DNA from: Mariniphaga sediminis
Lineage (GTDB): Bacteria > Bacteroidota > Bacteroidia > Bacteroidales > Prolixibacteraceae
Length of the DNA: 64,000 nucleotides
NCBI RefSeq assembly: GCF_003573545.1
Contig: NZ_QWET01000002.1
Coordinates: 124,001 to 188,000 of the forward strand
Direction of reading: 5' to 3'
The notes under the pieces were generated by a model. That model was not told the DNA's origin. It made no database searches and saw only the letters and a list, made by a program, of their open reading frames with translations. The position numbers were made by a program, and so were the translations under genes. Below are positions 43,181 to 48,983 of the stretch, piece by piece (the first letter of the stretch is position 1; the number at the start of each line of letters is the position of its first letter).

Positions 43181-43320
43181 ACTGTTGCAAATATCAAAAG
43201 GATACTATTTATTTGCTGTTGTTATTTGTGTAGGTGAACAACAACTGTTTCGCTGAACAAAACTTGAAGGAGTGATGATATTTGATAATAAATACGAAAG
43301 AAAAACAAAATTTTTTGACT

Positions 43321-43668
43321 ATGGCGCCTAACAAACCAAAGATAATAAAGGATTACAATAAGCTCGACAAAGATTTACAGGAACAGATAAAACTGGTTTA
43401 CTCTGAAGGCTTTGCAGAAAACCTCATCCATTTTTTCGACAAAAACGGCATCAAAGTAACAGCCCTGCCATTTGAAACCGAAGACAAATACTATATGCTC
43501 CGGATGACCGAGAATGAAGCCATTCAGATTGTGGATGAGGACGAAGATTTTGACGAAGATGGTTTTCTGAAGGACGAAGTCAAGCAGGACTACGAAGATA
43601 AGTACGCTGATTTAGACCACGTGGCAGACCAGATTTCTGACGATGACGGGGGTGACGATGACGATTAA
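43321..43668 (+). CDS. Conserved acidic Bacteroidota protein of unknown function
   Basis: A 115-residue protein with a folded N-terminal part (IIKDYNKLDKDLQEQIKL; LPFETEDKYYMLRMTE) and a highly acidic C-terminal tail ending in DDDGGDDDD. The frame starts at 43282, but ATG 43321 (MAPNKPK) gives the usual N-terminus for this type. I recall similar short acidic proteins in Bacteroidota without known function. It is convergent with yqeY. Confidence 0.75.
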   Translation: MAPNKPKIIKDYNKLDKDLQEQIKLVYSEGFAENLIHFFDKNGIKVTALPFETEDKYYMLRMTENEAIQIVDEDEDFDEDGFLKDEVKQDYEDKYADLDHVADQISDDDGGDDDD

Positions 43669-44190: not shown

Positions 44191-45585
44191 TTAATCAACC
44201 TGTCCGTGAAGGTATGAATTTTTATCGGTCAGTTTATTTTCACTGGTAACTGAATAATTGGAAAGTTTTTTCTTGTACTTCGGGTCGTTCATTCGTAACT
44301 GCCGCCGTTTATAAGCCGGAATATTTTCCAGTTCATCCAGATCTTCATCCGAGGCAGAAGCAAAGTCCATCCGCGAATTATCGGTCGAGCTTTTGCGTTC
44401 TTTCATTGTTTTGGGATACAACACTTCAAACTCCAAATCCTCTTCCTGTGTCTCTTCTGTACCGTTAAAATGAAATGTTGTCTGATCTGTGGCTACCGTG
44501 CTTTTCGTTGAAACAGGCACAGCAGGTTTCACCGGCTGCTTCTCTTCCACATCCTCTTTTAATTGATGGGTTTCTTTTTCCATTTTTCTTTCACCCGTAA
44601 ATTCAGCAATGGAACTCTTACCAAACCCGGTTGCAATGAGAGTGACTGAAATTTCCTCTCCAAGACTTTCATCTTTTCCGTTTCCCCAAATGAGGTCGGC
44701 TTCAAAACCTGCTTTATTCTGAAGGTAATCCGTAATTACTCCCACTTCATCCATTGTTACCTCCTGAGTCCCGGAAGTAATATTGAGTAAAATATTCTTT
44801 GCTCCACGAATATCATTGTTATTGAGCAACGGCGAGTTGAGCGCTTTCTCAACCGCTTCGGCAGCCCGGTCTTTTCCACTGGCAATGCCTGTTCCCATCA
44901 GTGCCAGCCCACTTTTACGCATCACGGTTTCCACATCAGCAAAATCGACGTTAATATACCCCGGTACGGTAATTATTTCTGCAATCCCCTTAGCCGCGGT
45001 AGCCAGCACATTATCGGCTTTTGAAAACGCTTCCGAGATTCCAAAATCCCCGTACATTTCGCGAATCCTTTCATTATTTATTATCAGCAAAGCGTCCACA
45101 TGTTTCTCCATCTCGGAAATTCCTTCCACCGCCTGCTTTATTCTGCGCTTCCCTTCATTCCGGAACGGAATGGTAACAATACCCACGGTAAGATACCCCT
45201 GCGCGTTGCAGGCCTCGGCAATAACCGGTGCTCCTCCGGTGCCCGTGCCACCTCCCATTCCCGCAGTAACAAACACCATTTTGGTTTTTTGCGAAAGCGC
45301 CTGCTTTACATCCTCAATGTTTTCAAGTGCCGCCTGTTTTCCCACCTCTGGTTTATTTCCGGCACCACGTCCTTCGGTAAGCGCCGATCCCAACTGAACT
45401 TTTATTGGAACCGGGCTGGCTTCCAACGCCTGCGCATCGGTATTACAAACAACAAAATCCACATCGTGAATTCCTTGTTTAAACATATAATTTAAAGCAT
45501 TTCCGCCACCGCCGCCAACACCAACAACTTTTATCGCAGCGCCCGTATTTTCCGGTAAACTAAAATTAGCCATCTTCTCTGTCAT
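44191..45585 (-). CDS. ftsZ: Cell division GTPase FtsZ, canonical copy (B)
   Basis: A 464-residue tubulin-like GTPase forming the division ring. GVGGGGGNAL (nucleotide site), GMGGGTGTGGAP (T4, with G for the usual first A), IINNERIREMYG and the catalytic NVDFAD T7 loop are intact. After a variable acidic linker the C-terminal conserved peptide NIPAYKRRQLRM (about 421-432), which binds FtsA in other bacteria, is present. Unusually, 32 further residues follow it. This copy resembles typical Bacteroidota FtsZ most closely. It lies 28 bp downstream of the divergent copy, in one operon. Confidence 0.95.
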   Translation of the reverse strand: MTEKMANFSLPENTGAAIKVVGVGGGGGNALNYMFKQGIHDVDFVVCNTDAQALEASPVPIKVQLGSALTEGRGAGNKPEVGKQAALENIEDVKQALSQKTKMVFVTAGMGGGTGTGGAPVIAEACNAQGYLTVGIVTIPFRNEGKRRIKQAVEGISEMEKHVDALLIINNERIREMYGDFGISEAFSKADNVLATAAKGIAEIITVPGYINVDFADVETVMRKSGLALMGTGIASGKDRAAEAVEKALNSPLLNNNDIRGAKNILLNITSGTQEVTMDEVGVITDYLQNKAGFEADLIWGNGKDESLGEEISVTLIATGFGKSSIAEFTGERKMEKETHQLKEDVEEKQPVKPAVPVSTKSTVATDQTTFHFNGTEETQEEDLEFEVLYPKTMKERKSSTDNSRMDFASASDEDLDELENIPAYKRRQLRMNDPKYKKKLSNYSVTSENKLTDKNSYLHGQVD

Positions 45586-45613: not shown

Positions 45614-46939
45614 TTATCCCTCCAACGGCTGATCATCATCTTCAAACAACCTGCCGAGTCTGAAATTTTTGTAAAACCAGCTATCAATACTTCCCTGGTT
45701 CACAGGCTCATCAGCTTTTGCTCTTTTCTTTCTCACTTTTCTTTTTTTCGAAACCGGAATTTCCTCCCTGTCTCCTTTTCCACTTTTGGAACCAACTGAA
45801 CCGGCAACTATCTTCCTTCCATTTCCTTCCATCTCCATTTCGAAAACCATCTCTGCCGGCTCCATTTCTTTGGAATCGACAGATTCTTCCAACAGGGCGG
45901 TCTCATTTTCTTTCTCCTCTTCCAAATTAAATTTTTCAGGCTCTTCTTTGGGTTGAAGTAACTGGTTCGGATTGGTTTTAAAACCGGTAGCCAGGATAGT
46001 GACACTCACATTCTCTCCCAAATTCTCGTCGTACCCATTCCCCCAAATAATGTCGGCCTCCTGCCCTGCCCGTTCCTGCAAGGTTTCAATAATTTCACCA
46101 ATCTCACCAATGGTGATTTCATCTTTACCCGAGATAATATTGAGCAAAATATTTTTTGTTCCGTAAATATCGTTGCTGTCAAGCAGGGGCGACTCAAGTG
46201 CCTCGTTCACTGCTTTAATAGACCTCCCTTCTCCGGAAGACAAACCAGTGCCCATTATAAAAACATGGCTGTCGTGCATAACGGTGTATACATCCGTAAA
46301 ATCAATATTTACATTCCCGTGAAGGGTAATGATTTCTGCCACCCCTTTCACAGCAGTGGCCACAATGTTATCGGCCATTTTAAAAGCCTTGCGGGCAGGC
46401 AGATCACCAAAAATGCTGTGAAGCCTCTGGTTGCTTACCACGAGCATACTGTCAACAAAACCACCCAGCTTTTTAATACCTTCCATGGCCTGCCCAAATC
46501 TTTTTTTGCCTTCGGCCGGGGAAGGTACCGTTACCACAGCAATGGTAAGAATACCGAGTTCACGGGCAAGTCCGGCAATTACAGGCGCCGCACCAGTTCC
46601 GGTACCGCCTCCCATTCCGGCTGTAATAAAAAGCATTTTGGTGTTTTCCTGCAGTACGTTTTTAATATCTTCATAATTTTCACGGGCAGCCTCTTCTCCC
46701 ATTTGCGGAAGATTGCCGGCGCCTCGTCCTTCGGTGAGGGTGACCCCAAGCTGTATTTTTACCGGCACCGGGCTGTTCTCCATTGCCTGGGCATCGGTAT
46801 TACAAATGATAAAATCAACGCCGGTAATTCCCTCTTCAAACATATGACTGACCGCATTGCAGCCACCTCCACCCACTCCAATCACTTTTATGATGGAAGA
46901 TGAAGCTTTTGGAAATTGAAAGTTTACTAGTTCGGTCAT
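45614..46939 (-). CDS. ftsZ: Divergent second FtsZ (A) with FtsA-like C-terminal tail
   Basis: A 441-residue FtsZ directly after ftsA (11-bp gap). The GTPase core is intact: GVGGGGCNAV, GMGGGTGTGAAP and T7 loop NIDFTD, so it should polymerise and hydrolyse GTP. It differs from copy B in the T5-T6 region (VVSNQRLHSIFG instead of INNERIREMYG) and lacks the IPAYxRRQ peptide. Instead a linker rich in E is followed by KKRKVRKKRAK (398-408), IDSWFYKNFRLGRLFE (418-433) and an acidic DDD tail. This order mirrors the C-terminus of the adjacent FtsA, whose corresponding amphipathic helix binds the membrane. A self-anchored FtsZ is therefore possible; not proven. Confidence 0.93.
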   Translation of the reverse strand: MTELVNFQFPKASSSIIKVIGVGGGGCNAVSHMFEEGITGVDFIICNTDAQAMENSPVPVKIQLGVTLTEGRGAGNLPQMGEEAARENYEDIKNVLQENTKMLFITAGMGGGTGTGAAPVIAGLARELGILTIAVVTVPSPAEGKKRFGQAMEGIKKLGGFVDSMLVVSNQRLHSIFGDLPARKAFKMADNIVATAVKGVAEIITLHGNVNIDFTDVYTVMHDSHVFIMGTGLSSGEGRSIKAVNEALESPLLDSNDIYGTKNILLNIISGKDEITIGEIGEIIETLQERAGQEADIIWGNGYDENLGENVSVTILATGFKTNPNQLLQPKEEPEKFNLEEEKENETALLEESVDSKEMEPAEMVFEMEMEGNGRKIVAGSVGSKSGKGDREEIPVSKKRKVRKKRAKADEPVNQGSIDSWFYKNFRLGRLFEDDDQPLEG

Positions 46940-46950
46940 ATCGTCATTTT

Positions 46951-48231
46951 TTAATTGAGTGCAACATCGTCGTCGTCGTCAACATAATCGAGGACTCCTT
47001 GAACGACACCTTTAAACCAGGGTGAAAACCTGCTTTCCTTTTTCTTTTTTACTACTTTTTTCTTCTCCTTCGGAGCTGGTTCAGCTTTCTCCAGCACCAT
47101 TCTCAACATCCCCAATGCTGTCAGGTAATCTGAATTCACAAAGTCTTTCGGTTTATTCACTGGTCTGAATACCGGGAATGCTTGCCGGGCATCCATTCCG
47201 GTACGAAATTTTACCAGCGAAACCAGGTTATTTAATCCGGCCGTTCCTCCGGAAATAACGATTCCCGATCCCAATTGATCGGCAATACCCGATTTTTCAA
47301 CCTGAAAATAAACACTGTCGATAATCTCTTCCATACGGGCCTGAATAATAAAAGCAAGGCTCCGGAATGAGATTTCCTTGGGTTCCCAGCCATTATGCCC
47401 CGGAATGGTCACTACTTTCCGGTCGTCGGCAAAGTCGCCCAACGCCTGTCCGTACTGAACCTTCAGTTGTTCAGCCCATTTGGGAAGGATAGAACACCCT
47501 TCTTTAATATCCCGGGTAATTACGTCACCCCCAAAAGGGATGATAGCCGTATGAATCATTGTTCCTTCATGATACACTGCCAGTTTGGTGGTTCCGGCGC
47601 CAATGTCGAGCAAAATAGCGCCCATTTCTTTTTCATCATCTGACAGGGCAGCTTCTCCCGCAGCAAGGGGCGACAAGATTACGTCTCCCATTTCCACGCC
47701 GTTTTTGCTCAGCACGCGACTAAAGTTAGTCAAATGAATTTCAGGAACAGTTATCAGTTTGAAAGTGGCTTCAATCTTCTTTCCTGTAATTCCTACCGGG
47801 CTAAGGTCGGAAACTTCTCCATCAATAATATACATCTGCGGAATGATGTGAAGAATTTTGAAATCCTGCTCCACCTGCAGGTTTTGGGCCTCCCTGAAAA
47901 GCTCATCCACATCAAACTGGGTAACCACCCCTTCGCCTGAAGTAAACCGGTAGCCTTTATGTTCAAATATTTTCATGGGCTGACCGGCATATGCTATGTG
48001 AACTTTCGAAATCTCTCCCTCAATCTGCTGCTGGATTTCTTCCAGTACCTGTTCGACCGAAGAAGCGGCTTCGTCAATATTCAGCACAACACCTCTTTTA
48101 ATTCCTTTAACCGGCGCTTTTGCCGCCCCCAGAATTTCAACTTTACCCTCCTGGTTTTTCTGCCCGGCGAAGGCTGCCAGTTTAGATGTGCCCACATCGA
48201 TTACTACTGAAAAATTTGTTTTTGAAGCCAT
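46951..48231 (-). CDS. ftsA: Cell division actin-like protein FtsA
   Basis: A 426-residue actin-fold ATPase that tethers FtsZ to the membrane. VVIDVGTSKLAAF (phosphate 1), ILLDIGAGTTKLAVY (phosphate 2) and SGIVISGGTAGL (adenosine motif) are visible, with the SHS2-like 1C insertion between. The C-terminus has a lysine-rich linker (390-398), the amphipathic membrane-targeting segment RFSPWFKGVVQGVLDYV (401-417) and five aspartates. Located between ftsQ (2-bp gap) and ftsZ(A) (11-bp gap). Confidence 0.95.
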   Translation of the reverse strand: MASKTNFSVVIDVGTSKLAAFAGQKNQEGKVEILGAAKAPVKGIKRGVVLNIDEAASSVEQVLEEIQQQIEGEISKVHIAYAGQPMKIFEHKGYRFTSGEGVVTQFDVDELFREAQNLQVEQDFKILHIIPQMYIIDGEVSDLSPVGITGKKIEATFKLITVPEIHLTNFSRVLSKNGVEMGDVILSPLAAGEAALSDDEKEMGAILLDIGAGTTKLAVYHEGTMIHTAIIPFGGDVITRDIKEGCSILPKWAEQLKVQYGQALGDFADDRKVVTIPGHNGWEPKEISFRSLAFIIQARMEEIIDSVYFQVEKSGIADQLGSGIVISGGTAGLNNLVSLVKFRTGMDARQAFPVFRPVNKPKDFVNSDYLTALGMLRMVLEKAEPAPKEKKKVVKKKKESRFSPWFKGVVQGVLDYVDDDDDVALN

Positions 48232-48233
48232 GT

Positions 48234-48983
48234 TTATCTTTTTTTCGCTATTACCTGATTTTTATATTTCACACTTATTGTCTGGTATTTATCCCAGTTA
48301 TTCCGTACCATTACCTGTTCATAAAAAGCCTTCATATTTCTTAGCTTTTCCGGGTAATTATCCAGCGTTCCCAACTCAATGAGGTGATCGCCAACAAGAG
48401 GAGTCAGCAACAAATTACCGTCCCGCTCCACGTGTACCTGTTCAACCTGCGCCTTCCAAAACGGATTGTCTTCAATAAAAAGGATAAAAGGCAGCAGTTT
48501 TTCTTTTGCAAACTGTTCTGAAAAGTACCCGGTGGCCACCAAAACGTTGGCCGTGTAACTGGATGAAACAGGAATTTGTTCCCCCTCCTTATCAAGGTAA
48601 TAATTTCCTGCTGACGACATAATCCGCACTGCTGGTTCCCGATGTCTTATCCGCACACCCAAAATCCCTTTGTAAGAGGTACTGTCTTTTGCAATCACTT
48701 TGTAAACCTCCGCTTTCAGGATTGCCTGGTGTTTCTCCACCTCCTTTTCTATAAAATCGGCATTTATTTGTCGTAATTCCCTTCCAATAAGCTGGTCGTC
48801 CGCCGCCCTGACCAACCGGGTAATTTCACTTTCACTTATTTTTATTAACTCATTTTTTCTGAATTCAACCTGAATATTGCGGCATGTCACATTCCTGCTT
48901 TCCTTTGAAGAAAAGGACAGTGTAACCACGATAAACGCGATCAACAACAGGTAACCTACAAATTTCAGTGACTTTCGCAACAT
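48234..48983 (-). CDS. ftsQ: Cell division protein FtsQ
   Basis: A 249-residue bitopic inner-membrane protein: short cytoplasmic N-terminus, one helix at about 7-26 (FVGYLLLIAFIVVTLSF), then a periplasmic POTRA-like and beta domain (RNIQVEF; YLDKEGEQIPVSSSYTANVLVATGYF). Sequence conservation is low, as for FtsQ in general; position between murC and ftsA settles it. The ATG overlaps the murC stop by one base. Confidence 0.88.
   Translation of the reverse strand: MLRKSLKFVGYLLLIAFIVVTLSFSSKESRNVTCRNIQVEFRKNELIKISESEITRLVRAADDQLIGRELRQINADFIEKEVEKHQAILKAEVYKVIAKDSTSYKGILGVRIRHREPAVRIMSSAGNYYLDKEGEQIPVSSSYTANVLVATGYFSEQFAKEKLLPFILFIEDNPFWKAQVEQVHVERDGNLLLTPLVGDHLIELGTLDNYPEKLRNMKAFYEQVMVRNNWDKYQTISVKYKNQVIAKKR

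Follow-up and report, generated by a model that had tools for sequence, protein, structure and literature searches.

Plastids and some archaea are known to build division rings from two types of FtsZ that are tethered differently. In chloroplasts, FtsZ2 binds ARC6 and FtsZ1 attaches to the membrane by a motif at its C-terminus, for which the RR/KLFF residues matter in angiosperms; in Arabidopsis FtsZ1, this motif is an amphiphilic beta-strand (PMC11285052, the portion drawn on here). In Odinarchaeota, FtsZ1 is membrane-bound via an N-terminal amphipathic helix and FtsZ2 via SepF, and the same source, in the part used here, cites further cases of direct membrane binding by FtsZ (Liu 2022; Dutta 2025), including a membrane-binding motif in FtsZ of Mycoplasma genitalium (Dutta 2025; all as cited in PMC12583498). 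An engineered FtsZ-YFP fusion with an added membrane-targeting sequence (FtsZ-YFP-mts) forms dynamic rings on bilayers (PMC5979038, an excerpt). The original prediction for the locus described below regarded a natural FtsZ with its own anchor as novel, a claim that these reports on Odinarchaeota, Mycoplasma and chloroplast FtsZ1 contradict. Among the matches listed for the open-licence literature, there is no report of tandem FtsZs in Bacteroidota.

Here we describe a tandem ftsZ pair in the division operon of Mariniphaga sediminis in which the first gene (hereinafter copy A) combines a complete FtsZ GTPase and a variable linker with a conserved, non-canonical C-terminal tail. From the sequence features of this tail, we propose, with a probability of roughly 0.6, that copy A is an FtsZ paralog that tethers itself to the membrane through a putative anchor of its own.

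Such a pair is similar to the chloroplast FtsZ1/FtsZ2 system in that there are two paralogs, only one of which carries a conserved peptide for a membrane-protein adaptor, the arrangement also seen among the 71 pairs considered below. The C-terminal membrane-binding motif of chloroplast FtsZ1, with its K/R-L-F-F signature, can be likened to the putative anchor of copy A, which contains R-L-F and, in 24/41 aligned sequences, K or R two places before the terminal phenylalanine (F432). Compared with FtsZ1 as characterized in the cited portion of PMC11285052, the differences are that an acidic run comes after the copy-A segment, that the pair belongs to a bacterial tandem operon with FtsA, and that lipid binding is predicted. 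The Odinarchaeota FtsZ1/FtsZ2 pair also includes one directly membrane-bound and one adaptor-bound paralog, as we propose for copies A and B, but, in the description used here, the anchor is an N-terminal helix, the system is archaeal and the adaptor is SepF (PMC12583498). Mycoplasma genitalium provides a natural bacterial FtsZ that binds the membrane directly, as proposed for copy A, with the difference that, according to the same excerpt, the terminal motifs are reported for Mycoplasma clades. The FtsZ-YFP-mts construct has its own membrane anchor too, but an artificial one; by analogy, the dynamic rings it forms (PMC5979038, in part) suggest that a directly anchored subunit would be mechanically workable.

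Organization of the division locus

The window, that is, the whole stretch of 64,000 nucleotides analysed (contig NZ_QWET01000002.1, positions 124,001 to 188,000), encodes a compact division cluster, all on the minus strand, in the order ORF at the position normally taken by ftsQ (48234-48983), ftsA (46951..48231), ftsZ copy A (45614..46939, 441 aa) and ftsZ copy B (44191..45585, 464 aa). A Pfam scan of the first of these ORFs produced no match above the cut-off. The others exceed the cut-offs of their models: FtsA scores 285.8 bits with TIGR01174 (cut-off 175.85), and copies A and B score 348.8 and 358.7 bits with TIGR00065 (cut-off 295.2). Copy A is thus flanked by ftsA, directly upstream and separated by 11 nt, and by the second ftsZ, 28 nt downstream. 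The two FtsZs are 54% identical (residues 3-358) and are the sole FtsZ matches in the genome (E up to 0.001). A small ORF beside the cluster (43282-43668) has a very acidic end, SDDDGGDDDD.

FtsZ matches were detected in 135 of the 140 Prolixibacteraceae genomes, with at least two matches in 131, and the relatives in named records include Mariniphaga, Maribellus, Draconibacterium, Mangrovibacterium and Sunxiuqinia. Copy A lies upstream of copy B in all 71 pairs, with a median distance of 27 nt from the A stop to the B start, and the end of an FtsA ORF is found within 200 nt upstream of copy A in 74 of 75 cases.

Both the GTP-binding motif GGGTGTG and the T7 motif NxDFxD are present in 75/75 copy-A proteins of the family, and the respective columns are invariant in a 41-row alignment. 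Given also the normal, confidently predicted FtsZ core in the AlphaFold2 model of the protein from the window, copy A should polymerise. Judged by its sequence, copy A is an FtsZ in its core that lacks the canonical tail.

The C-terminal tail of copy A

Copy B keeps the canonical FtsZ ending, with the C-terminal peptide core PAYKRR (residues 423-428; 44302..44319) and the extreme C-terminus NSYLHGQVD (44194..44220). Within the family, PA[YF]xR is present in 70/71 copy-B sequences and the C-terminal D in 71/71. Copy A lacks any such peptide (PAYxRR followed by NNSYLHDNVD, in the form typical of the phylum). Instead, its last 44 residues (398-441) consist of a basic block KKRKVRKKRAK (398-408; 45716..45748), the spacer ADEPVNQGS, the segment IDSWFYKNFRLGRLF (I418-F432; 45644..45688), which is conserved by its alignment columns and pN/pS and which we consider the putative membrane anchor, the acidic run EDDD (E433-D436; 45632..45643) directly after it, and QPLEG. 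Like the consensus of FtsA tails, the aligned columns of copy A show acids directly after the hydrophobic segment. The adjacent FtsA ends in KKKVVKKKKES-RFSPWFKGVVQGVLDYV-DDDDD-VALN, where RFSPWFKGVVQGVLDYV (46981..47031) occupies the usual place of the FtsA membrane-targeting sequence. The original prediction gave the residues of both tails correctly, leaving out the nine-residue spacer that follows the basic block of copy A; the stretch that it assigned to the tail, 45614-45700, corresponds to residues 414-441 plus the stop codon, so that the basic block falls outside it.

In general form, the copy-A ending reads W-F-x-K/R-x-F-(xx)-x-x-L/F-F-acidic. A pattern written after seeing the copy-A sequences, W[FLI]xxx[FLM] (hereinafter W-motif), matches 74/75 distinct copy-A sequences in the family, none of the 71 copy-B proteins and none of 41 other canonical FtsZs. 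The ending [LFIM]F followed by an acid within three residues is likewise found in 74/75 copy-A sequences; this looser pattern is also seen in 10/71 copy-B proteins and 1/41 other canonical FtsZs. The exception, L064, has another hydrophobic end, without the W-motif. When 41 copy-A proteins are aligned (37 from the family to which the window belongs, two from family f19 and two from family f28), W421 is conserved in 38/40 rows, R/K424 in 35/40, F/L/M426 in 41/41 and F432 in 41/41. Over these rows, the mean column entropy rises from 0.95 bits in the core to 1.56 in residues 418-436 and 2.76 in the linker. For the two structure alignments (41 and 31 rows) and for the hydrophobic moment below (23 representatives), the sequences were hand-picked for diversity rather than taken one per genus by rule.

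The same pattern emerges from a comparison of six sequences (that of the window, three of the genus and two of neighbouring genera), in which the core and residues 418-436 have pN/pS values of 0.091 and 0.096, compared with 0.515 for the linker and 0.326 for the last five residues; because synonymous sites are near saturation, only the contrast between these values is used. Taken at the level of sequence, the copy-A tail is a functional element rather than a quirk of one sequence, and the check on conservation among orthologs that accompanied the original prediction comes out in its favor.

Resemblance to FtsA tails

The membrane-targeting sequence of FtsA has the same architecture as the copy-A tail, i.e., a C-terminal basic stretch, a hydrophobic segment and an acidic run. 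As expected of an FtsA-type membrane-targeting sequence, the copy-A tail closes the protein, and the linker in front of it is flexible and unconserved. A profile built from 70 non-redundant FtsA tails (consensus K-rich, GLFDKVKQKVKDFF, EDDDEDMEM) gives a median score of 3.0 bits for copy-A tails of the family, compared with 0.0 for canonical FtsZ tails and 0.3 for shuffled copy-A tails. The 75 copy-A tails of the family (group f1A) are separated from 289 C-termini of other ORFs in the loci examined and the window with an AUC of 0.916, and from shuffled tails with 0.806. When canonical FtsZ tails are compared with this background of 289, the AUC already reaches 0.706 and 0.748, so that part of the group separation is compositional. 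The tail of the copy A in the window scores weakly (2.2 bits) and is matched or beaten by 145/920 shuffled tails and by 11/289 background C-termini, these 11 including two FtsA fragments and two half-length FtsZ ORFs. As far as the profile goes, the resemblance to FtsA expressed in the original label "FtsA-like" is a group property and no proof for a single sequence.

Amphipathicity and predicted structure

The tail in the window had been predicted to be plausibly amphipathic, a suggestion that the hydrophobic moment does not bear out. Its values range over 0.36-0.57 with the span taken (0.40-0.57 for the best spans of 11-18 residues) and do not exceed that of shuffles of the same residues (p 0.21-0.57); for the 14 residues ending in F432, it is 0.36 (p 0.36). 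Hence the moment offers no proof of an amphipathic helix in this tail. Residues 427-428 are a two-residue insert that is present in 13-14 of the 41 aligned rows (tails of the Mariniphaga and Maribellus type) and shifts the helical phase. Among 17 representatives free of the insert, the moment is 0.49-0.59 (p 0.03-0.11) for 12 (e.g., NTDSWFQRQFNRFF) and 0.28-0.45 (p 0.16-0.49) for the remaining five. Overall, FtsA tails are more amphipathic than copy-A tails, with a shuffle p below 0.1 in 50/69 of the former (18 of 87 FtsAs, having no segment by the rule used, were left out) versus 10/23 of the latter.

In the AlphaFold2 models of the protein from the window and of an insert-free ortholog (L072), the linkers are unstructured, with pLDDT of about 43-51 in the former. 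The tail of the former contains only a five-residue helix (421-425, pLDDT about 52). The latter has a nine-residue helix, F404-F412, on the conserved segment just after the W, with pLDDT of about 56 versus a linker value of about 40. A safer label for the tail than "amphipathic helix" is "aromatic, basic, partly helical segment".

Extra FtsZs in other families

From the order, 325 genomes were drawn, 320 of them outside the family. One FtsZ match was found in 288 of these 320, none in five, and two or more in 27, all of which were inspected. In 14 of the 27, an extra FtsZ without the canonical end is encoded beside the canonical one (five genomes of f19, three of f28, one of f63, one of f77 and four of f96). 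The extra FtsZs of f19, f28, f63 and f96 end in a short hydrophobic or aromatic segment, e.g., WTQIKFFKELFEDDDQKM, TIFQTFIGFFDEDPK, GGWIQTTFDSLFDE and DNWFKRKFGNIFNED, and in 16 of these 17 tailed copies F is followed by an acid, as in FtsA. Counted per group, the W-motif is found in 1/5, 0/4, 2/4 and 2/4 of the other-family extra copies and F followed by an acid in 5/5, 4/4, 3/4 and 4/4. In f28 and f63, there are three tandem ftsZ genes (L094, L095, L096, L097), the first two differently tailed and the third canonical. The FtsA-tail profile separates these groups from the 289 C-termini as well, with AUC values of 0.989 for f19 (n=5), 0.952 for f96 (n=4), and 0.992 and 0.978 for the first and second copies of f28/f63 (n=4 each). 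The extra copy of f77 (L098, genome G215) reaches 1.0 bit; its basic, hydrophobic stretch, GFIKKIGRTIVEFQKELNLTF, is not terminal but lies some 20 residues away from the end. In f96 (L099, L110, L111, L114), the downstream FtsZ ends right after PAYERR or PAFERR, without the usual NNSYLHDNVD.

Two further genomes of the 27 (f13, f54) are possible additional cases of an extra tailed FtsZ. Four encode half-length FtsZs (three of f74, one of f38). The f15 genome gives two weak half-FtsZ-like matches, that of f83 carries two divergent copies, neither with a tail of this kind, and the last five look like single genes broken up by contig ends or frames. In other orders of the class, two matches were found in 3 of 283 genomes, and these seem to be split genes or a fragment. 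Judged from coordinates and frame lengths, nine multi-match genomes were set aside: they have single genes cut by contig ends (G191, G303, G417) or lying in two frames (G256, G575), a fragment on a second contig (G464), one frame matched in two pieces (G655), a half-FtsZ resembling those of related genomes (G372), and a canonical gene accompanied by two weak half-FtsZ-like matches (G338). None of the nine adds a full-length tailed FtsZ.

Outside the class, extra copies were found in 8 genomes of one family, f181. In the two of these that were inspected (G789 and G801, from another class of the phylum), the extra copy is located away from ftsA and keeps IPAF[RL]RR close to the C-terminus. That every additional FtsZ acquires a tail of this kind is thus not borne out by these two genomes, which provide a small negative control: duplication alone brings no tail. 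In this second FtsZ (L162 1753-3150, L163 1919-3316), NPNFTGLF is added after IPAF[RL]RR.

Proposed mode of tethering and alternatives

The canonical C-terminal peptide of FtsZ binds FtsA. We hypothesize that a tandem duplication of ftsZ took place downstream of ftsA, that copy B would have retained the FtsA-binding peptide, and that copy A would have retained the GTPase and polymerisation domain, swapping the peptide for a short aromatic and basic segment. With a variable linker before it and acids after it, this segment would dip into the inner membrane as the FtsA tail does. The two FtsZs are probably co-expressed and probably share one Z ring, which would be held both via FtsA (B subunits) and directly (A subunits), by analogy with chloroplast FtsZ2 and FtsZ1. 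Membrane insertion, co-polymerisation, co-expression and a role in division are all properties that we infer for copy A.

The main and serious rival, although in our opinion an unlikely one, is that the tail serves as a linear docking motif for a protein such as FtsA itself or another divisome component; FtsZ-A would then reach the ring by a contact different from that of FtsZ-B. Much of what we found on the tail is compatible with this possibility: pN/pS is as low as in the core, K/R424 is well conserved, the amphipathicity of the form in the window is weak, and only short helices of low confidence are predicted. Above all, the invariant F432 and nearly invariant W421 are held tighter than a generic membrane anchor needs, which counts against self-tethering; the listed FtsA tails, compared by eye, look more variable than those of copy A. 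The acids beside the segment do not favour anionic lipids, which also counts against a membrane anchor. Conversely, the extra FtsZs of other families share the architecture of the tail rather than its exact residues and match the FtsA-tail profile; given that their hydrophobic or aromatic segments differ, a membrane anchor fits better than one specific partner.

Under another, improbable scenario, the tail would have been copied from the 3' end of ftsA through tandem duplication of this end together with ftsZ, and its function would again be membrane anchoring. FtsA is encoded directly upstream of copy A, and the K-rich stretch, the hydrophobic segment and the acids are common to both tails, but, beyond this architecture, no residue-level similarity was seen by eye in the inspected loci, the profile score in the window is low, and the tails differ between families. 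That copy A is a degenerating duplicate with a frayed, functionless tail is hardly credible: the canonical peptide is lost and the linker drifts freely, but the retention of two or more FtsZs in most genomes of the family, together with the conservation of the GTPase motifs and the W-motif and the low pN/pS of the tail, contradicts this reading.

If copy A does tether itself to the membrane, the A/B ring would be a parallel, in free-living bacteria, to the chloroplast FtsZ1/FtsZ2 ring. The tandem pair is located inside the division operon, and named, cultured bacteria are among the relatives (Draconibacterium, Mariniphaga, Maribellus). Such a pair would let one ask what is gained by combining directly bound and adaptor-bound subunits, whether A and B co-polymerise, and whether FtsA is dispensable for tethering. 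The occurrence of tailed copies in several families of the order would offer a comparative system for the gain of membrane anchors by FtsZ.

Origin of the tailed copies

The phylogeny of the tailed copies depends on the model. In a FastTree that included divergent outliers, they are adjacent and form no supported clade. In the IQ-TREE LG+F+R5 tree (103 rows), the family copies A are joined with the first copies of f28/f63 at 100, and the tailed copies of f19 and f96 sit on weak branches; under LG+C20 PMSF (58 rows), the former union is no longer recovered, and the deeper branching order of the tailed copies differs between the models. The family copies A form one clade (68 under LG+F+R5, 100/100 under LG+C20 PMSF), as do the first f28/f63 copies, and the second f28/f63 copies group with the f77 copy (99 and 97/89, respectively). 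A single clade of all 23 tailed rows is 25.6 log units worse and is not rejected (p-AU 0.0745). L120_1m was left out when the tree was built; ORFs that contain X, are shorter than 300 aa or are open at the end of a locus were not collected; and L101_3315m, L064_4367p and L155_1488m, whose canonical ends were missed by the motif rule, were set as canonical by hand.

From these sequence comparisons, we prefer several origins of the tailed copies. More generally, and at somewhat less than even odds, duplicated FtsZs in this one order might have repeatedly become directly membrane-bound subunits, with short hydrophobic anchors taking the place of the FtsA-binding peptide; rings would then consist of two (in f28 and f63, three) differently tethered FtsZ species.

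Half-length FtsZ-like proteins

Second loci that encode half-length FtsZ-like proteins, in open frames of 228-270 aa, were observed in L129 (G300), L130 (1366-2139; G212) and L131 (1369-2133; G274), and a similar match is present in L180 (G372). Two of these proteins that were scanned match only positions from about 11 to 210 of the 353-position FtsZ model, which indicates that the C-terminal domain is absent. Such proteins are possibly filament caps or regulators. Those of L130 and L131 carry a basic and aromatic stretch at the end.
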